A stretch of DNA of 64,000 nucleotides from Methanoregula boonei 6A8. GTDB lineage: Archaea > Halobacteriota > Methanomicrobia > Methanomicrobiales > Methanospirillaceae. Shown in pieces: positions 2,782-39,878 of this stretch. The translations under genes and the position numbers were made by a program. Location of the stretch: NCBI RefSeq assembly GCF_000017625.1, contig NC_009712.1, forward strand, positions 1,054,001 to 1,118,000, in the 5' to 3' direction. Within the stretch, counting starts at the first letter, position 1, and the number at the start of each line of letters is the position of its first letter. Under the pieces are notes generated by a model. That model was not told the origin of the DNA. It was given only the letters and a program-made list of their open reading frames with translations, and searched no databases.

Positions 2782-5700
2782 ATGAAACTTTCTGGTTATC
2801 ATGCCCTAATGCTCCTTTTTATTATCGGTCTTATCGCGATAGCGATACTTCCCGGGATTAGCTCAGCGGCACTTAAAGATACCTCTACGGGAACTATATA
2901 TCAAACCCTTGAAGATGCCGCAACGGCAAATACCGGCAGTGATATCCTGTTCCTGATCAGTAACACTTCGGTGACCCTGACTCCTGGCAAGAACATTGTC
3001 CAGTTCCCGAACACCATTACCATTCAACAAAATAAGACATACACAGGGGGGAAAACAGATAAAGACTTTATATTTGTCAATGCAACAATTGGATTTAACG
3101 GAAACTCCCAGACCTATACATTGTCTCCTACCGGCAGTAGTCATTTCCTCATTTTCAGCTATGATCAGACCGGAACATTCCAGAATAATTCCCTCTTCGA
3201 AATTACCGGGAATTCGAATACGTTTAATCTTGGTGAATCCCATCCATCCCTGATCGCCGGGAGTTTTACCGGTACCGGGGTAAACCTCACGGGGAATTAC
3301 AATTCTCTTAATTCCTGGATCGGTGAACTTGAAGACGCCAATGGTGATGGCTATGCTTCCGATCTGTCGATAGTATTCAATCTGGCAGGCTCCTACAACA
3401 GCATCTCTGACACCCAGTCCTGTCCCCTGAATACCCAGGCGAGCGGGGGGATAGGGCTAAAAGTGACAGGTAATTTTAATGGAGCACCCGGGTCAGCCAG
3501 TGTAACAAGTCCGCCGACATCGGGCGAGACTTCCCCACCTATCTATATCGACACCAGCCAGATTTACAGTGCTCCCGGGGGGAAAATCTATATCGCTCCT
3601 TCAGCTAACGGGAATGTCATCCGGGATGATAATTTCAATCTGAATACGCAGCCACAGATCTATCTCTCGAATGGAACTGCAGGCACACAAACAACCTCCT
3701 GGTATTTCTTCAACAGCTCCTGGTCGCCTTCCGGCGGGAACAGGAACCTGACCATCGATACTTCGCAATGGTCTTTCCCGTTTGGAGGAAACGTAAGCCT
3801 GGTTGCCGGTATTTCCAACATTACCGGGCAGTCGACAGATATTATTCAGAACAGCTCCCTGTTCCTGGATTCTACTACCGGAGAATCGAGCGGGATCCTG
3901 AAAAATGACACAAGCTCCCTGAAATTCAACACTATCTCTGCTGTTGTCCCGGTGGGGATGTCGATTGGGAATAATACGTACCTCGATAAAAATAACAATA
4001 TTGTATCTACTCCTGGATCCCTGGGTTACGTAACCGTCCTTGATTTCAACCCCTACTACTCCCTGCCGAACGAGAACTTCAACAGTACCCGGACAACCGA
4101 CTGGAGTTCGATACCGGATTTCACTGCAGCCCATAATCTCACGTTAGTAGTCGAGAACAAGACATCGCATGCATTGCTGGGGAATATCAGTTACAACCAG
4201 GATCTCGATCTCTTGACATCTGGTGTTGATTCAGGTCTTGCCGTGCTCGGGAATAATCTCGCCATATCCTCGACCGGTAACAGCACCAACTTTACGATGA
4301 CTAACGCGGAACTGAATTCCGTATTTAATAACCCGGCCACCCTGACCATGTATCCCAACAACTTCCCGTTCGCCGGTTATGGGAATATTACTATCACGGC
4401 TACCACTGATTCGGGCACAACGACAACACTATTCGATAAAGGCACCTGGCTCAATTATGCCGGTTTCGTCAACTATCCTTCACAGAATGTCACAGTTATC
4501 GGTAACTCCAGTATTTCACTCCCGGTCCTCCATTTCAGCAAATACGATTTCTTTGAAACGGCTCCGGTCGCAAACTTCACCGGCACACCGACGAACGGAA
4601 ATGCTCCACTTACCGTGCAATTCACCGATACCTCGGCCTACAGCAACCCGGATTCCTGGAACTGGTCGTTTGGAGATGGCAATTTCTCAGTTGCACAGAA
4701 CCCTGCGCATACGTACGTCTCTGCGGGCAGCTACACGGTTTCCCTGACTTCTGCCGATGTCGGGGGGTCCAATACGACCACGATTGCAAATTACATCAAC
4801 GTCTCGGCGGCCCTGCCTGTTCCGATCTTCACCGGGACTCCGACTTCCGGCGCAGAGCCACTGAATGTCCAGTTCAACGATACTACCCCTGGAACCGGTA
4901 TCCAGTACTGGAACTGGTCGTTTGGAGATACCACCTGGTCCAATACAACAGACGTGACGGCAAAGAACGTAACACACCTGTACACAGCCATCGGCAGTTA
5001 CACGGTAAGCCTCTCGGTCACCAATTCATCGGGAATAAGCTCCCCGGCAACCGTTACCAATACGACCACGATTGCAAATTACATCAACATCTCAGCGGCC
5101 CTGCCTATTCCGATCTTCACCGGGACTCCGACTTCCGGCCCCGAGCCATTGAGTGTCCAGTTCAACGATACTACCCCTGGAGCCGGTATCCAGTACTGGA
5201 ACTGGTCGTTTGGAGATGCTACCTGGTTCAATACAACAGACGTGACTGCAAAAAACGTAACTCACCCGTATTCTTCGGCCGGTAGCTACACGGTGAACCT
5301 CTCGGTCACTAATTCATCAGGGCTGAGTTTCCCTGCGACCATTACCAATACGACCACGATTGCAAATTACATCAACGTCTCGGCGGCCCTGCCTGTTCCG
5401 ATCTTCACCGGGACTCCGACTTCCGGCGCAGAGCCACTGAGTGTCCAGTTCAACGATACTACCCCTGGAACCGGTATCCAGTACTGGAACTGGTCGTTTG
5501 GAGATGGAAACTGGTTCAATACAACTGATGTCACGGCAAAAAACGTAACGCACCCGTATACCGCCATCGGCAGTTACACGGTAAGCCTCTCGGTCACCAA
5601 TTCATCGGGAATAATCTCCCCGGCAACCGTTACCAATACGACCACGATTGCAAATTACATCAACGTATCAGCGGCCCTGCCTATTCCGATCTTCACCGGG

Positions 5701-8133
5701 ACTCCGACTTCCGGTTTCGAGCCGTTGAGTGTCCAGTTCAACGATACCACCCCAGGAACCGGTATCCGGTACTGGAACTGGTCGTTTGGAGATGCTACCT
5801 GGTTCAATACAACGGACGTGACTGCAAAAAACGTAACTCACCCGTATTCCTCGGCCGGTAGTTTTTCGGTAAGCCTCTCGGTCACCAATTCATCGGGACT
5901 GAGTTCCCCGGCAACCATAACCAACACGACAAAGCTTGCAAATTATATCAACGCGTCAGCGACCCTTCCCATTCCGGTCTTTACCGGTACACCGACATTC
6001 GGTCATGAGCCGCAAAATGTCCAGTTCAATGATAGCACGTCGGGGACTGGCATCCAGTACTGGAACTGGTCGTTTGGAGATGGAAACTGGTTCAATACAA
6101 CCGATGTCACGGCAAAAAACGTAACTCACCCGTATACAGCCATCGGCAGCTACACGGTAAGTCTCTCGGTCACCAATTCATCAGGAATACTCTCCCCGGC
6201 AACCGTTACCAATACGACTTCGATTGCAAATTACATCAACATCTCAGCCGCCCTCCCCATTCCGGTCTTTACCGGTAACCCGACATCCGGTCACGCGCCG
6301 CTGAGTGTCCTGTTCAATGATAGCACGTCGGGGACTGGCATCCAGTACTGGAACTGGTCGTTTGGAGATACCACCTGGTCCAATACAACTGACGTGACGG
6401 CAAAAAATGTAACCCACCTGTATTTGTCAGCCGGCAGTTACACGGTGAACCTCTCCGTCACCAATTCATCGGGGCTGAGTTCCCCGGCAACCATTACCAA
6501 CACGACTTCCATCCTGAATTATATCAGTATCACGGGCCCGCTGCCGGTCCCCTCATTTACCGGATCGCCCCGGGGCGGGAATGCGACGCTGGTTGTACAA
6601 TTCAATGACACTTCCATATCCCCGGGCATCACGGCATGGAACTGGTCATTTGGCGATAGTGGCTGGTCCAACACCACCAATGTTCTTCTCCGGAACGCCA
6701 CCCATCAGTATTCAGTGCAGGGATCGTATACGGTGAACCTCTCCGTAACCAATTCATCGGGATCAAATACCACGTCACAGACGGGGTACATTGTCGTAGG
6801 CCCCCCCCTTCCCATTCCGGACTTCACAGGATCGCCAACCCACGGGAACCCTCCTCTGGCAGTGCAGTTCAACGATACCTCGACATCTCCCGGCATCAAC
6901 TCCTGGAACTGGTCGTTCGGTGATAATATCTGGTTCAATACGACCGACATAACCGTCCGGAATGCGTCCCACACGTATTCATCGACAGGTACTTTTACCG
7001 TGAACCTGACGGTTACCAATACAACCGGCGTTAACACCACAAGCCGGTCGGGGTACATTTCCACGCTCCCCTCCCTGCCGATCCCCGCATTTACCGGTTC
7101 ACCGGTATCGGGTCTTGCCCCCCTGTTCGTCCAGTTTACTGATACGTCGACATCGCCGGGCATCAACTCCTGGAACTGGTCGTTTGGCGATGGCAGCTGG
7201 TTTAACACTTCCGATGCCACCCAGAGAAACGCAAATTATACCTATGTCAATGCCGGCAGTTACACGGTGAGCCTCTCGGTCTCCAATACTTCGGGGACTA
7301 ATACGACAACCCGGAATGGTTTTATCACTGCCACCAGCTCCAGCTCTTCCGCCCCGGCATCGCCCGGAAGCAGCGGCGTCTCGTCAAGTGTAGGTGGTTC
7401 AACTGCGGTGACTCTCTCTAGCGTCCCCTCAGGACAAACGGCGATATTTTCCTTTGACCAGAATCCCAATCCCGTTCAACCGGTTGCCGTCATCCAGGTC
7501 CAGGTCGTACCTTCACAAAACCTGGGAACCGTGGAGGTAATCGCGTTGCCTGCAACTATCGGTAAACCCCTGGAGGGGACCGTTGCCGGTTATATACTTA
7601 TCAATCTCGTTGGCGTCAATCCGGATGCAGTCGACCATGGTGTTATCACCTTCTCCGTCATTGAAGAATGGCTTGGCAACCACCAGGTAAACCCTGCAAA
7701 TATCGTACTGATGCGCGAGCACAACAATCAATGGACAGCATTGCCAACCACCTTTGATCACCAGGACGGGGATTACTATTATTTCGATGCAACTACGCCA
7801 GGTTTCTCGTACTTTGCCGTAGTGGCGCAATCCCCGGGAACTACCCCGGGGGCGACCGTGAAATCAACACCCGCTCCGGCAATAACACCGATTACCCCGG
7901 TCGTCACCACAGTGCCGACCTACGCGATTGTTCAGCGTACCCCGATTGTATCACCGGTGACCGTGGGAACGACTGCGGTTCCGGCAACATCGGCACCCTC
8001 GACGTCTTCCGGTATCCCGATCAATGTGTTCGCAGCGATCGGCGGGATCGTAATTGTCCTTGGGGGAATCCTCCTCATCAGACGATGGTGGATACGAAGA
8101 CAAAATCCGGCATTATTCCGGAAATATGACTGA
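2782..8133 (+). CDS. Giant secreted surface protein with ten PKD domains and a C-terminal membrane anchor
   Basis: 1783 residues. A signal peptide (about 1-29) is followed by about 560 residues rich in Asn, Ser, Thr and Gly with short hydrophobic strands, resembling a beta-solenoid region. Ten PKD domains then run from about 4563 to 7341, each with the WNWSFGD core. Next comes a region resembling the archaeal PGF-pre-PGF domain (ending with SYFAVVAQ), a Thr/Pro-rich stalk, a transmembrane helix (about 1745-1770) and a basic tail RRWWIRRQ. It is likely displayed outside the cell and anchored in the membrane, as an S-layer-associated or adhesion protein. Many NxT/NxS sites suggest N-glycosylation. 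Six consecutive PKD units are encoded by DNA with an exact 288-bp period. Specific ligand unknown. Confidence 0.93.
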   Translation: MKLSGYHALMLLFIIGLIAIAILPGISSAALKDTSTGTIYQTLEDAATANTGSDILFLISNTSVTLTPGKNIVQFPNTITIQQNKTYTGGKTDKDFIFVNATIGFNGNSQTYTLSPTGSSHFLIFSYDQTGTFQNNSLFEITGNSNTFNLGESHPSLIAGSFTGTGVNLTGNYNSLNSWIGELEDANGDGYASDLSIVFNLAGSYNSISDTQSCPLNTQASGGIGLKVTGNFNGAPGSASVTSPPTSGETSPPIYIDTSQIYSAPGGKIYIAPSANGNVIRDDNFNLNTQPQIYLSNGTAGTQTTSWYFFNSSWSPSGGNRNLTIDTSQWSFPFGGNVSLVAGISNITGQSTDIIQNSSLFLDSTTGESSGILKNDTSSLKFNTISAVVPVGMSIGNNTYLDKNNNIVSTPGSLGYVTVLDFNPYYSLPNENFNSTRTTDWSSIPDFTAAHNLTLVVENKTSHALLGNISYNQDLDLLTSGVDSGLAVLGNNLAISSTGNSTNFTMTNAELNSVFNNPATLTMYPNNFPFAGYGNITITATTDSGTTTTLFDKGTWLNYAGFVNYPSQNVTVIGNSSISLPVLHFSKYDFFETAPVANFTGTPTNGNAPLTVQFTDTSAYSNPDSWNWSFGDGNFSVAQNPAHTYVSAGSYTVSLTSADVGGSNTTTIANYINVSAALPVPIFTGTPTSGAEPLNVQFNDTTPGTGIQYWNWSFGDTTWSNTTDVTAKNVTHLYTAIGSYTVSLSVTNSSGISSPATVTNTTTIANYINISAALPIPIFTGTPTSGPEPLSVQFNDTTPGAGIQYWNWSFGDATWFNTTDVTAKNVTHPYSSAGSYTVNLSVTNSSGLSFPATITNTTTIANYINVSAALPVPIFTGTPTSGAEPLSVQFNDTTPGTGIQYWNWSFGDGNWFNTTDVTAKNVTHPYTAIGSYTVSLSVTNSSGIISPATVTNTTTIANYINVSAALPIPIFTGTPTSGFEPLSVQFNDTTPGTGIRYWNWSFGDATWFNTTDVTAKNVTHPYSSAGSFSVSLSVTNSSGLSSPATITNTTKLANYINASATLPIPVFTGTPTFGHEPQNVQFNDSTSGTGIQYWNWSFGDGNWFNTTDVTAKNVTHPYTAIGSYTVSLSVTNSSGILSPATVTNTTSIANYINISAALPIPVFTGNPTSGHAPLSVLFNDSTSGTGIQYWNWSFGDTTWSNTTDVTAKNVTHLYLSAGSYTVNLSVTNSSGLSSPATITNTTSILNYISITGPLPVPSFTGSPRGGNATLVVQFNDTSISPGITAWNWSFGDSGWSNTTNVLLRNATHQYSVQGSYTVNLSVTNSSGSNTTSQTGYIVVGPPLPIPDFTGSPTHGNPPLAVQFNDTSTSPGINSWNWSFGDNIWFNTTDITVRNASHTYSSTGTFTVNLTVTNTTGVNTTSRSGYISTLPSLPIPAFTGSPVSGLAPLFVQFTDTSTSPGINSWNWSFGDGSWFNTSDATQRNANYTYVNAGSYTVSLSVSNTSGTNTTTRNGFITATSSSSSAPASPGSSGVSSSVGGSTAVTLSSVPSGQTAIFSFDQNPNPVQPVAVIQVQVVPSQNLGTVEVIALPATIGKPLEGTVAGYILINLVGVNPDAVDHGVITFSVIEEWLGNHQVNPANIVLMREHNNQWTALPTTFDHQDGDYYYFDATTPGFSYFAVVAQSPGTTPGATVKSTPAPAITPITPVVTTVPTYAIVQRTPIVSPVTVGTTAVPATSAPSTSSGIPINVFAAIGGIVIVLGGILLIRRWWIRRQNPALFRKYD
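4813..6540 (+). repeat. Six tandem 288-bp PKD-coding repeats
   Basis: Equivalent bases of successive units fall at 4813, 5101, 5389, 5677, 5965, 6253 and 6541, an exact 288-bp (96-codon) period with no indel. Long stretches are identical between units, for example around the WNWSFGD and TNSSG codons. Three further, more diverged units start at 6541, 6808 and 7075 with spacing of 267 bp. Confidence 0.95.
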
Positions 8134-8334
8134 TACTCTTTTCCTCCCTCTGCATCCCATCCGACTTTAATCTCACCCTGTTTTTAATTGCATTCCCGAA
8201 CCAGTTTTCAGGCGGCTACTGGGGTTTTGGGTTAATGCATCCCGATCAATTATTTGCCGGCAGGTCGTTTGCGGGCGCCCGGGAGATTGACTGACCGGTA
8301 CACGCTTTTTTATTTGTTCTTTCCTAGCCGGTTT

Positions 8335-8865
8335 TTAAAAAGCTCCGCCCGTGTTGAGGAGCTGGTTAAAATTACCCGTGTCCAGCGAGGAAAACTGTGA
8401 CATCATGGGCTCGACGACCATGACATAGATAAGTACGAGCCCGATGACAACAACGGCTATGGCAAACACGACAAAAAGGACCACATGCAGCATCCGCATC
8501 TCGCAAAACGGGATCTCACCGGTGTTCATCTTTCCTGCCGTTTTATGCGCATCGTACATTGCATAGAGCCAGACGATAAGACCGGGAATGAGAAGGATGA
8601 CCAGACCCACGCAGGTCGCAATAAAGAGGGCAAAGCCCTTTGCCGTCTGCCCGTTGTAGACCTGCCCGAGACCAGGAAGGAGCGTAGAACAGGCCCCGGC
8701 GATTAATGTACTCTTCTGCTCCCGCGCCGGAACCGGCACAGAATATCCACCATATACGGGATATCCGGCCGGGGCTTTCCCGTCCATGCGGGTACCGCAT
8801 CCGCTGCAGAAACGGGGGGATGCCTCATCAGATATTTTACCGCAGTGCGGGCATACCATGGGCAT
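8335..8865 (-). CDS. Zinc-ribbon membrane protein with TM2-like domain
   Basis: 176 residues. The N-terminus is a double-knuckle zinc ribbon (CPHC at about 5-8 and CSGC at about 20-23). After a Gly/Pro/Tyr linker comes a hydrophobic hairpin with the LLPGLGQVYNGQ signature seen in TM2-like domains, then a third transmembrane segment (VVLFVVFAIAVVVIGLVL) and a short tail. The role of such proteins is not established; a zinc ribbon fused to a membrane hairpin is common in archaea. ATGs at 8865 and 8859 are both possible starts; neither has a strong ribosome-binding site. Confidence 0.8.
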   Translation of the reverse strand: MPMVCPHCGKISDEASPRFCSGCGTRMDGKAPAGYPVYGGYSVPVPAREQKSTLIAGACSTLLPGLGQVYNGQTAKGFALFIATCVGLVILLIPGLIVWLYAMYDAHKTAGKMNTGEIPFCEMRMLHVVLFVVFAIAVVVIGLVLIYVMVVEPMMSQFSSLDTGNFNQLLNTGGAF

Positions 8866-9146
8866 ACAGGTATTCCGGATTGAGATTGATCCAAGCAGGG
8901 TAAAAAGACTTGCCCGCCAGATACGGGAGGTATCCGGATCGGAAAGCCGTACCTAAGATCCGGCACAGTACGTAACTCCGGGAATGGTGGGAACCAAACG
9001 CAGAAATCAGGTGGCCCCTACGTGGTGAAGATGAGATACGATATGACCGTGTTTCGCTGTCTCAAAATACTGCATCCGCAAAATCAGACCGTCACAGAAT
9101 CGTTCCCCGCACGGACTTTGCGGAGTCGGGAAGAAAAAAGAGTTGA

Positions 9147-29932: not shown

Positions 29933-31552
<1,620 letters not shown>

Positions 31553-34690: not shown

Positions 34691-34709
34691 TCCTGCCACG
34701 AGTCAAAAG

Positions 34710-34718
34710 TATTTATGG
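34710..34718 (+). promoter_or_regulatory. Encapsulin operon promoter
   Basis: TATTTATGG is a plausible box A placing transcription start near 34741. A strong ribosome-binding site GGAGG (34751-34755) precedes the cargo gene ATG at 34761. uvrC ends only 20 nt before the box, so the operon is probably independent of uvrC. Confidence 0.5.
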
Positions 34719-34760
34719 TACGTAAGAGACTATTGACCTTACAGAATTACGGAGGATACC

Positions 34761-35135
34761 ATGCCTGACTTTTTCAACCCGTTCAGCGGAATGGTCCCGG
34801 AACGCAAACTGACCAAAGAAGAACTTATTCGTGTCGTCCGGCTCGATGTTGCCGGGGAGCTTGAAGCAATCCACGGGTATATGGCCCATGCAGAGGCGAC
34901 CGACAACGAGCTTGCAAAGGCGGTCCTTACCGATATCGCCAATGAAGAGCGCGTGCATGTCGGGGAACTCCTGCGGCTCCTTTCCATCCTTACCGGTAAC
35001 GAGGATGAATTCTATAAGAAAGGAACGCTTGAAGTGGACACCCTTGCAGGACAGATCGGGGCTGCCGGCGCTGCTGCACCCGTGACAAAGGAAGAACCGA
35101 CAATAGGTTCGCTCAAGAACACAAAGGAGGCATAA
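34761..35135 (+). CDS. Encapsulin cargo: ferritin-like protein with C-terminal targeting peptide
   Basis: 124 residues. Residues 18-90 form the two-helix ferritin-like/rubrerythrin-type domain known from encapsulated ferritins, with candidate di-iron ligands in AGELEAIHGY (Glu33, His38) and IANEERVHVGE (Glu62/63, His66). A Gly/Ala-rich linker (97-107) leads to EEPTIGSLKNTKEA at the extreme C-terminus, which has the hydrophobic-xGSLK pattern of encapsulin cargo-loading peptides. It would oxidise and store iron inside the shell encoded 2 nt downstream. The shell gene's ribosome-binding site lies within the end of this gene, so the two are translationally coupled. Confidence 0.92.
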   Translation: MPDFFNPFSGMVPERKLTKEELIRVVRLDVAGELEAIHGYMAHAEATDNELAKAVLTDIANEERVHVGELLRLLSILTGNEDEFYKKGTLEVDTLAGQIGAAGAAAPVTKEEPTIGSLKNTKEA

Positions 35136-35137
35136 TT

Positions 35138-35926
35138 ATGGCAAATGTATATCTCGGACGCGACGAGGCACCCATTGGTGCAGAGTCCTGGAAACTGATC
35201 GATGATGTGGCAGTCCAGGCAGCAAAAGGCCAGCTTGCCGGGCGCAGGCTGCTTGCAATCGAAGGGCCGTACGGATTCGGGCTCAAGGCAATTCCCCTTG
35301 GGGACTATGCCCTTGAGGACGGGATTAGCGCGAGCGTCTCGCTCCCGCTCTCCCTGATCCGGACCGAGTTCTCGCTGGGCAAGCGCGATCTTGCGGCCTA
35401 TGAACGCGATCACCTCATCCTTGACACGGCCCCGGTGGCCTGTGCAGCCATGGATGCAGCGGCAAAGGAGGACCGGATCATCTTTAACGGCCTTGCCGGG
35501 ACCCCGGGCCTCCTCAACGCGGAAGGTGCCGGATCGCTCACCCTTTCAAAGTGGGACAAGGTCGGAGCCGCTGCAGACCAGATTATCGATGCGGTGACCA
35601 AACTCGACGCAGCAGGATTCCACGGGCCCTACAGCCTTGCACTTGCGCCGGCCCAGTACAACCTCCTCCTCAGGCGGTACCCGCAGGGAGACGGGACCGA
35701 GCTCGACCACGTCTCGTCTATTGTGGGCGACGGTGTGATTAAGGCCCCGGTACTCAAGAAGGGTGGCGTGCTCGTTGCCTCGGGCAGCCAGTATGCCTCG
35801 GTTGCGCTTGGCCAGGATCTCGCAGTCGGGTATAATGGCCCGGTCGGGGATCTCTTGGAGTTCCAGATCTACGAGAGCCTTGCGCTCATTGTCCGGGCAC
35901 CTGAATCCATCCTCGTGCTCAAGTGA
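35138..35926 (+). CDS. Encapsulin shell protein, family 1
   Basis: 262 residues, standard for family 1 encapsulins with the HK97 capsid fold. N-terminal GAESWKLIDDVAVQAAKGQL and RRLLAIEGPYGFGLKAIPLG match the family's N-terminal helix and following strand; the E-loop and P-domain helix region (YERDHLILDTAPVACAAMDA) and the A-domain (SLALAPAQYNLLLRRY) follow. It self-assembles into an icosahedral compartment that binds the cargo targeting peptide on its inner face. An AAAGGAGG ribosome-binding site (35123-35130) precedes the ATG. No phage tail, portal or terminase gene is nearby, so it is a compartment and not a prophage capsid. Confidence 0.95.
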   Translation: MANVYLGRDEAPIGAESWKLIDDVAVQAAKGQLAGRRLLAIEGPYGFGLKAIPLGDYALEDGISASVSLPLSLIRTEFSLGKRDLAAYERDHLILDTAPVACAAMDAAAKEDRIIFNGLAGTPGLLNAEGAGSLTLSKWDKVGAAADQIIDAVTKLDAAGFHGPYSLALAPAQYNLLLRRYPQGDGTELDHVSSIVGDGVIKAPVLKKGGVLVASGSQYASVALGQDLAVGYNGPVGDLLEFQIYESLALIVRAPESILVLK

Positions 35927-37797: not shown

Positions 37798-39282
37798 TTA
37801 GTCCACCTTGAATTTCCGGTTGGCTTCCATTGCCTCGACGGCCACATTATTGACGGTCTGGATCATCCGCGTGATCTCATCAAGGGCAGCTGCAGATTCC
37901 TCGGTTGCCGCTGCGGCGTCCCCGGCCTCTTTTGCGGTCCGCTCGATAATCCCGCCGACTTCGTGGACGCTTGCGGTAATTTCCTCGGTGGTTGCGGCCT
38001 GTTCTTCGGTTGCGGCCGCTACCTCGGATGCACTGTTCACTACCGTCTCTGCCGCGGTCTGGATCTTCCTGAATGCGGCAAGGGCATCGGCGGACGCGGC
38101 AACTCCCTTGTCTACGAGCTCTTTTGAGGCCTCCATTGCGTCGGTTGCCTTCTTTGTGGCCGCATTGAGCTGGGTGATCATGTCCTCGATCCTTTCCGCG
38201 CTGGACCGGGATTCCTGGGCAAGGGATTTGACCTCGGATGCGACAACGGCAAAGCCTCTGCCGTGCTCTCCGGCCCGGGCTGCCTCAATTGCGGCATTCA
38301 GTGCAAGCAGGTTTGTCTGGTTGGCAAGGTCGCGGATGAGCACGATGATCTTGCTGATGTCTGCCATCTGCTTCTCGATCTCTTTGACGATCCCGTGTAC
38401 GTTCGTGGTAGACACGGTGATCTCATCCATATCCTTGTTGACTGTCTCCGCAAGGATCGCACCGTCTTTTGCTGCATCGTTTGCGCTCTTTGCCTGGTTG
38501 GTGACACTCTCCATACTTGAGGTGATTTCCTCAACTGCCGCGCTCATGTCCTGCATGGCCTTGGAGATCTGGTCGACGCCCTCGGCTGCATGCTGGGCAT
38601 TTTCGCTGACTACCCCGGCATTCTTTGCGATCTGGTTTACGCCTTTTGAGGCATCCTCGATGCTCCGGTTCGCATTGTCAGCCGTTGTCGTGAGGTTCTG
38701 CATCTGCTTGTTGACATCCCCGATGTTCTTTTCGAGACTGACTACAATCCCGCGAACGGCATCGCGGAGTTTGACAATCTGTTCGTACGTTGCCTTCGTG
38801 TCCTCATCCGGCTTGGTAATCTCGTGGCGCACGGTCAGGTCCCCGGCTGCCATCTTCGCATAGACCACGCTCAGGTCGGCAACCTCTTTTTCCATATATT
38901 TCTGGACCTTCACATGGGACGTGATCTCATTGTACGTGATATAAACGTACTTTACTTCCCCATGTTCGTTCAGGATTGGCATATTTGTCCTGACAACAAC
39001 GTGGATCCCGGAGGAGGATTCAAGCGTGCTGCTTCCATGGGTAGTCCGCCGGGTACTGATAGACTCTGCCACCGACTCCCCGCTGTTCTCAAGATATCTG
39101 ATCATATTCTGGTCACGGAAATCCGAGAACCGGATTGCCATGAGGCGATCCTTGGAAAACCCTACCATTCTGCAGAAGCCATCGTTTACAAGCTGGAACT
39201 TCTGGTTTGCATCTACGACTGCCTGTGCGAGCGGATTTTTCTCGAACATCTCTGTTAAATCCTGTACTTCAACCATTTTCAT
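37798..39282 (-). CDS. Soluble PAS-containing methyl-accepting chemotaxis protein
   Basis: 494 residues from the ATG at 39282, chosen because it overlaps the stop of the upstream permease gene by one base (TGATG). An N-terminal PAS domain (about 1-120, [20 protein letters not shown]) is followed by a partial HAMP-like stretch ([12 protein letters not shown]) and a long coiled-coil signalling domain with the conserved tip [19 protein letters not shown]. There are no transmembrane segments, so it senses inside the cell. The operon joins it to an acetate permease and CheW, suggesting it responds to the state created by acetate uptake; that link is inferred. Confidence 0.93.
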
Positions 39283-39878
39283 CACCCGAGTCTTACGACT
39301 GTTTCTTTCCACACTTCGTTCATGATCTGCCCAAAGCCGACATATACTGCAGAGAGTCCGCAGAGGATCCCTTCAATACCGGCAATTACGATGATGGTGC
39401 TGTTCCCGAGCGCATTTCCTACGATCAGCAGGAGGAAGAGCAGTACCAGGAGGCCAAAGACCACCTGCATGGATTTTGCCATCCTGAATGTGATCAAAAA
39501 CATCCCAAGCGAGAACATCCCCCATATCCCAAGGAAACAGACAAGCCCCTCTCCGGAAAGAGCAGGCCCCCATCCCCAGATGGGCATAAGGATCAAAAAC
39601 ACCAGAGAGATCCAGAAAAACCCGTACGAGATAAACGCTGTCATCCCGAACGTGTTGTTCTTTTTCCATTCCATAAGCCCTGCAACGATTTGGGCAAGGC
39701 CGCCATAGAAGATGCCCATGGCAAACACCACGGAGCCCATGGCAAATATCCCGGCATTATGCATGTTCAGGATAATCGTCGTCAGACCGAATGCCAGGAG
39801 GCCCAGGCCTCCCGGGTTTGCAGTCATATCTACAAGCCGAAACTCGTTTTTAAATACCGAATCTTCCTTTACTTCCAT
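39282..39878 (-). CDS. Acetate uptake transporter, GPR1/FUN34/YaaH (SatP) family
   Basis: 198 residues with six membrane helices. The family signature [14 protein letters not shown] is at about 21-34 and the rest of the helices follow (for example [17 protein letters not shown]). These proteins move acetate/succinate with protons; hydrogenotrophic methanogens need acetate as a carbon source. GGTGA precedes the ATG. The gene heads the permease-chemoreceptor-cheW unit, with a possible 72-codon gene just before it. Confidence 0.93.

Follow-up and report, generated by a model that had tools for sequence, protein, structure and literature searches.

We identified in Methanoregula boonei a pair of adjacent genes that very probably forms a two-gene operon encoding an encapsulin nanocompartment that oxidises iron. 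This explanation builds on the families of both proteins, their intact catalytic and tail-binding residues, the strict link of the cargo tail to the shell, purifying selection and the predicted folds. The pair is an ordinary family 1 encapsulin of the FLP-TP kind, as both families, the ferroxidase residues, the TIGSLK tail and the invariant R36 and D227 of the shell indicate, and both kinds of protein are already known. The M. boonei genome is a single contig of 2,542,943 bases, and the window, i.e. the whole stretch of 64,000 nucleotides analysed here, covers its bases 1,054,001-1,118,000. The locus has the following layout, in window coordinates:

34705-34718, plus strand, TATA-like box AAAAGTATTTATGG (putative archaeal promoter element), some 45-55 nt upstream of the cargo start
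34751-34755, plus strand, cargo ribosome-binding site GGAGG, 5 nt upstream of the ATG at 34761, read directly
34761-35135, plus strand, cargo gene (EncB_fam), 124 aa, C-terminus EEPTIGSLKNTKEA
35123-35130, plus strand, shell ribosome-binding site AAAGGAGG, within the last cargo codons, 7 nt upstream of the shell ATG, read directly
35138-35926, plus strand, shell gene (encap_f1 / Linocin_M18), 262 aa
35934-35942, plus strand, T run 3' of the shell stop, likely archaeal terminator, read directly

Both open reading frames are exactly as the sequence-only reading of this DNA had described them in position, length and 2-nt spacing (TT in the sequence); they are distinct, with a tail-tagged cargo, rather than fused as in Pyrococcus, and the shell ribosome-binding site does lie inside the end of the cargo gene. 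The stretch GTCAAAAGTATTTA of the putative TATA-like box is common to two syntenic relatives (L032 and L033), where it stands at a similar distance in otherwise different surrounding DNA, and its counterpart in L025 is AGGAATATTTATA; a T-rich stretch 3' of the shell gene is also found in three compared relatives. The shared TATA-like box and the T run suggest that the pair is transcribed as a stand-alone two-gene unit. Compared with three relatives, dN/dS is 0.08-0.15 for the cargo and shell genes, and both are under strong purifying selection. Together with the profile matches given below, this places the two genes well beyond chance.

The shell protein scored 224.6 bits (1.4e-66) against the NCBIfam profile encap_f1 (cut-off 100) and 259.9 bits (2.7e-77) against Linocin_M18. 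Its AlphaFold2 model has a pLDDT of 85.9 and a pTM of 0.84, and the 50 best Foldseek matches of the model are all encapsulins or engineered encapsulins. From these profile matches and the predicted structure, we identify it as a family 1 encapsulin with the HK97 fold. The sequence-only reading had named this family and proposed a profile search of both proteins, and encap_f1 and EncB_fam are indeed both matched above their curated cut-offs. We then aligned the cargo-binding groove in the group's 49 complete shells, the M. boonei shell included, where two tail-binding positions stand out:

35243-35245, plus strand, shell R36, equivalent of the tail-binding Arg34 of Klebsiella and Thermotoga, invariant in 49/49
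35816-35818, plus strand, shell D227, equivalent of the tail-binding Asp229, invariant in 49/49

In the structure from Klebsiella, Arg34 and Asp229 are tail-binding, and mutations have shown their roles (PMC10960027). The hydrophobic groove positions 31, 36 and 230 are kept in the alignment, and the position of the salt-bridge residue Asp38, reported as mostly dispensable (PMC10960027), is Ala in the M. boonei shell and variable across the 49 shells. The flavin-stacking Trp of T. maritima, which has been described chiefly from anaerobes (PMC8610991), has Arg as its counterpart in every one of the 49 shells (Arg83 in M. boonei), which leaves an anaerobic electron route unaccounted for. The E-loop region falls 6 residues short of that in T. 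maritima and about 15 short of those in Quasibacillus and Myxococcus, so that the T number is not guessable from relatives.

The HK97 fold is common to capsids, the shell matches a major head protein profile (PHROG 264, 8.5e-9), and real proviruses of the same phylum have capsid proteins that match the encapsulin profile, as might be expected if the shell gene were a viral capsid gene left behind by a provirus in decay. However, neither a portal, protease or terminase gene nor a head gene was found when nine flanking genes (29.9-42.5 kb) were tested, in agreement with the earlier remark that no phage structural gene lies nearby. Moreover, a tagged ferritin-like cargo adjoins the shell in 50 of 50 relatives, the shell groups with bacterial encapsulins and is split from the provirus capsids at 99/99, and its phage matches are only two, both weak, with none in viral contigs. 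The sequence-only reading had taken a match to a phage capsid family with portal or terminase genes nearby as the sign of a mistaken assignment, and this combination does not occur here. We thus give the provirus origin practically no credence. The candidate of an HK97-type virus major capsid protein was likewise rejected, as no head genes lie nearby, unlike at the provirus loci L115 and L119-L124.

The flanking genes include those of GroEL, RecQ, UvrC, QueC, CheW, a methyl-accepting protein and an acetate transporter. The chemoreceptor-like neighbour weakly matches tape-measure profiles, which we take to be a chance coiled-coil similarity. The GroEL gene (window 29939-31552; PHROG groEL, 539 bits) encodes a bacterial-type chaperonin in a methanogen, and the gene at 39282-39878 of the window encodes an acetate uptake transporter (NCBIfam AceTr_1, 225 bits) and adjoins the methyl-accepting chemotaxis-like protein and CheW genes. 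In archaeal proviruses of the same phylum (L115 of genome G356, positions 3399-8999; L119; and L121-L124), the major capsid protein matches encapsulin profiles. The G356 capsid reaches 143.6 bits on encap_f1 (cut-off 100) with portal, Mu F-like and cement genes adjoining it; this match is an annotation false positive and a clue to how encapsulins descend from viruses.

The cargo scored 129 bits (8.5e-38) against the NCBIfam profile EncB_fam (NF058679, cut-off 90). It misses the narrower TIGR04535 (encapsulin-associated ferritin-like protein), and membership of that subfamily was rejected on the curated cut-off (96.3 vs 125 bits). Its sequence relatives in the PDB are EncC of Myxococcus xanthus and the encapsulated ferritin domain of Pyrococcus furiosus, and the best Foldseek match of its AlphaFold2 model is 5n5e. 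The model has helices at residues 19-46, 50-78 and 81-103, followed by a low-confidence tail (104-124), an architecture that agrees with the description of the FLP-TP class as a helical domain of about 100 residues plus a disordered tail of 10-40 residues with a targeting peptide (PMC11202242). Judged by its profile match and predicted fold, the cargo is an encapsulated ferritin-like protein of this class, with a C-terminal targeting peptide; the definition of the class (EncB_fam) also includes a D5 decamer with ferroxidase activity. Its functional residues are encoded as follows:

34857-34958, plus strand, ferroxidase residues E33 (34857-34859), Y40 (34878-34880), E63 (34947-34949) and H66 (34956-34958)
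35100-35117, plus strand, targeting peptide TIGSLK (T114-K119), with the 5-residue extension NTKEA after it

The residues E33, Y40, E62, E63 and H66 are invariant in all 95 aligned ferritin-like proteins, and E33/Y40/E63/H66 have the same spacing as E32, Y39, E62 and H65, which make up the ferroxidase centre in R. rubrum (PMC5012862). Comparable tags are NIGSLK in Klebsiella and TVGSLR in Myxococcus (PMC10960027). A search of the genome for a second tagged cargo gave 41 DNA matches to T[IV]G..[LF], with no other convincing protein ending in the motif.

We found a shell over the cut-off in 50 of the 232 genomes of the class, so that the pair is not peculiar to the M. boonei strain but is shared by dozens of related methanogens. 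Each of these 50 shell genes is immediately preceded by a tagged ferritin-like gene in the same orientation. EncB_fam is matched over its cut-off in 151 of the 232 genomes, about 100 more than carry a shell. The cargo-loading peptide recognised in the sequence-only reading is present as TIGSLK, and its core motif occurs in 50/50 cargos adjoining a shell vs 0/40 shell-less homologues, the latter sample being 40 proteins of shell-less genomes, read at 37 loci. The shell-less EncB_fam proteins (L076, L078, L081-L113 and others in the class) have about 100 aa, with no tag in those examined, and some in genus g15 (L080, L082 and L083) instead end in lysine-rich tails such as KKTAKSSKKKG. In a tree from which the tail columns were excluded, the shell switches between present and absent 6 times (well-supported branches require 3 of these switches), and the tag switches equally often. 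A sign test of tag against shell has 2 independent pairs on supported branches, which both agree and are too few for significance; the sequences being related and the supported independent pairs only 2, the tag-shell statistics alone are weak.

These about 100 related genomes with a ferritin-like protein and no shell, together with the unusual 5-residue extension of the M. boonei tail, might indicate that the C-terminal tail is not functional as a targeting peptide and that the cargo works free, like its shell-less relatives. However, in all 90 proteins compared the tail is present or absent together with the shell gene, the groove residues of the shell are invariant, and the tail decays where the shell decays, namely, in genomes G219 and G212, which makes a freely working cargo in M. 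boonei highly improbable. In the coordinates of their own loci, the two decayed cases are:

1419-2164 of L075 (G219), minus strand, shell pseudogene behind a ferritin-like gene with a cut-off tag
511-1497 of L080 (G212), minus strand, shell pseudogene behind a ferritin-like gene with a mutated tag

The ferritin-like gene of G219, a genome that is 99% complete, now stops at a TAG, the frame beyond it still reads RSSADDEGTTLNSLK and then a stop, a decayed tag (TTLNSLK), and beyond the severed tag lie broken shell pieces with 60% identity to a relative's shell over one stretch. In G212, the tail is PKKTAKSSKKKG, with the tag now TAKSSK, vs KTTVGSLKE in shell-bearing sisters, and a shell remnant with stops lies behind the cargo in three reading frames. 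The two genomes are a natural experiment that supports the role of the tag: when the cage is lost, the tag is lost and the enzyme stays. These remnants are the best evidence here for TIGSLK as a shell-dependent tag. We found no description of tag decay beside a shell pseudogene in the searchable literature, which is no proof of novelty.

The cargos fall into two types. Type B, to which that of M. boonei belongs, has a mean identity of 40% to Myxococcus EncC, vs 32% for type A, and type A is 62% identical to the cage-less forms vs 53% to type B. These comparisons suggest that, in the A lineage, the original cargo may have given way to a resident protein. Mapped onto the shell tree, the two types require 3 changes, and since a single type A clade is not rejected (AU p 0.29), we keep cargo replacement as an idea. 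Taken together, the shell in Methanomicrobiales may be a dispensable layer on an older and widespread ring ferritin that has been lost repeatedly, the cargo then persisting as an untagged, free enzyme, and in one lineage the resident free protein may have replaced an EncC-like cargo and gained TIGSLK; for this joint proposal we consider the chances evenly divided.

All 49 shells form one clade (98/99) outside the sampled bacterial and Pyrococcus-type fused shells in the shell tree. The RecQ-UvrC-cargo-shell order is shared by M. boonei and its two closest relatives, the locus being syntenic in three close relatives, and other groups carry the pair elsewhere, in at least three different neighbourhoods. 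GC3 is 0.70 for the shell, 0.71-0.73 for the neighbours and 0.58 for the cargo. We found no convincing flanking repeats or tRNA as insertion marks at the locus and no cargo relatives on plasmids; the plasmid shells are distant, and among the four loci read, the three annotated ones are of peroxidase (DyP) types. A recent horizontal transfer from bacteria into this lineage would accord with the patchy distribution among the class genomes, with the lower GC3 of the cargo and with the loci examined in the sampled phylum genomes beyond the class group, which include no unfused shell except provirus capsids. Nevertheless, the single shell clade, the synteny with close relatives and the neighbour-like GC3 of the shell make a recent gain in the M. 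boonei strain unlikely, so that we consider such a transfer very improbable, and the pair is old in Methanomicrobiales. The probable horizontal acquisition claimed in the sequence-only reading is therefore not borne out as a recent event, and an ancient transfer into an ancestor is possible. The shell phylogeny that it had proposed did separate this clade from the sampled shells, but with its thin bacterial sample did not tell the source.

Among characterised systems, that of M. xanthus (EncA with EncB/EncC) likewise has its shell and its ferritin-like cargo as distinct proteins. No PDB entry matches the cargo sequence better than EncC, EncA ranks among the better hits for the shell, and the tails are TVGSLR in M. 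xanthus and TIGSLK in M. boonei. The M. xanthus system differs in its several tagged cargos, compared with the one found in M. boonei, and in the longer E-loop region of its shell. The closest solved shell by sequence is that of the Firmicute Dendrosporobacter (9i8e), followed by the Quasibacillus and Myxococcus shells, and the best match by fold is its mutant 9i8f. The Firmicute encapsulins (9i8e and Quasibacillus IMEF, 6nj8) have about 30% identity to the M. boonei shell, the IMEF cargo is four-helix whereas that of M. boonei is of the two-helix EncFtn type, and unlike them, M. boonei-type neighbourhoods have no conserved partner gene, no conserved third gene being found across the relatives. 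P. furiosus (2e0z/5n5e) shares the fold of the ferritin-like domain, at Foldseek rank 1 for the cargo, and the same pairing; however, its FLP is fused to the shell, and the two shells lie in different clades. Fused ferritin-shell encapsulins of the Pyrococcus type, of about 336 aa, also occur in the same phylum (family f9: L073, L074 and L117). The Thermotoga maritima shell (3dkt) is alike in chain length and in the conserved Arg34/Asp229 equivalents, and differs in its flavin-binding Trp and E-loop length. The tail-less s-FLP of Nitrosomonas europaea (3k6c) resembles the shell-less methanogen homologues in its domain, its length of about 100 residues and its lack of a targeting peptide (PMC11202242); however, the methanogen forms sit in genomes without a detected shell gene and thus cannot be shell cargo.

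From these data, we infer the following course of assembly, loading and iron storage. The shell protein would assemble into an HK97-type cage, and the cargo would form a ring-shaped oligomer whose subunit interfaces carry di-iron ferroxidase sites (E33, E63 and H66, near Y40). The TIGSLK of the disordered cargo tail would occupy a groove around R36, L38, D227 and L228 on the shell's inner surface, and this docking would pack the cargo while the cage assembles. Fe(II) would enter through shell pores, be oxidised at the cargo by an oxidant likewise to be presumed, and be retained inside as mineral until it left by a presumed release route. Such retention would buffer iron and, on exposure of the anaerobe to air, would clear both Fe(II) and oxidant. 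Iron storage is the probable role in view of the family and the intact active site, and homologous cages oxidise and store iron (PMC5012862, PMC11202242).

The M. boonei genome also has a strong PF00210 ferritin, two other rubrerythrin-family genes and FeoB. A strong PF00210 ferritin is present in 41 of the 50 shell-bearing genomes, and a dedicated iron store may therefore be redundant, which, for a strict anaerobe, favours a compartment mainly for defence against O2 or peroxide, where the cargo spends Fe(II) on O2 or H2O2 and the mineral is a by-product rather than an iron reserve. Some FLP encapsulins have also been described as stress-induced secondary stores in a review (PMC11202242). However, the parts are identical in kind to those of iron-storing systems, and stress genes are absent from the conserved neighbourhoods, so that we consider a mainly defensive role possible but on balance doubtful; the two roles are not exclusive and may coexist. 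In the small sample of draft genomes of genus g15, the shell-bearing G213, G215 and G217 have no PF00210 match, and the shell-less G212, G214, G216 and G218 have one each (that of G218 weak).

Methanogens need much iron and live without oxygen. A 2021 survey of 326 methanogen and related genomes covered ferritin, bacterioferritin and IssA, with encapsulins unmentioned (PMC8351635), and we found no literature that combines encapsulin with Methanoregula. The pair also exposes two annotation traps, namely, that the EncB_fam model labels cage-less proteins as encapsulin cargo and that the encap_f1 model passes a provirus capsid. If the shell is indeed a dispensable layer on an older ferritin, the free homologues of encapsulated ferritins would have a cage-independent job. 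The clade is a natural set of variants, i.e. tagged and caged, untagged and free, and in between, so that the contribution of the cage to the same enzyme becomes testable in an anaerobe.
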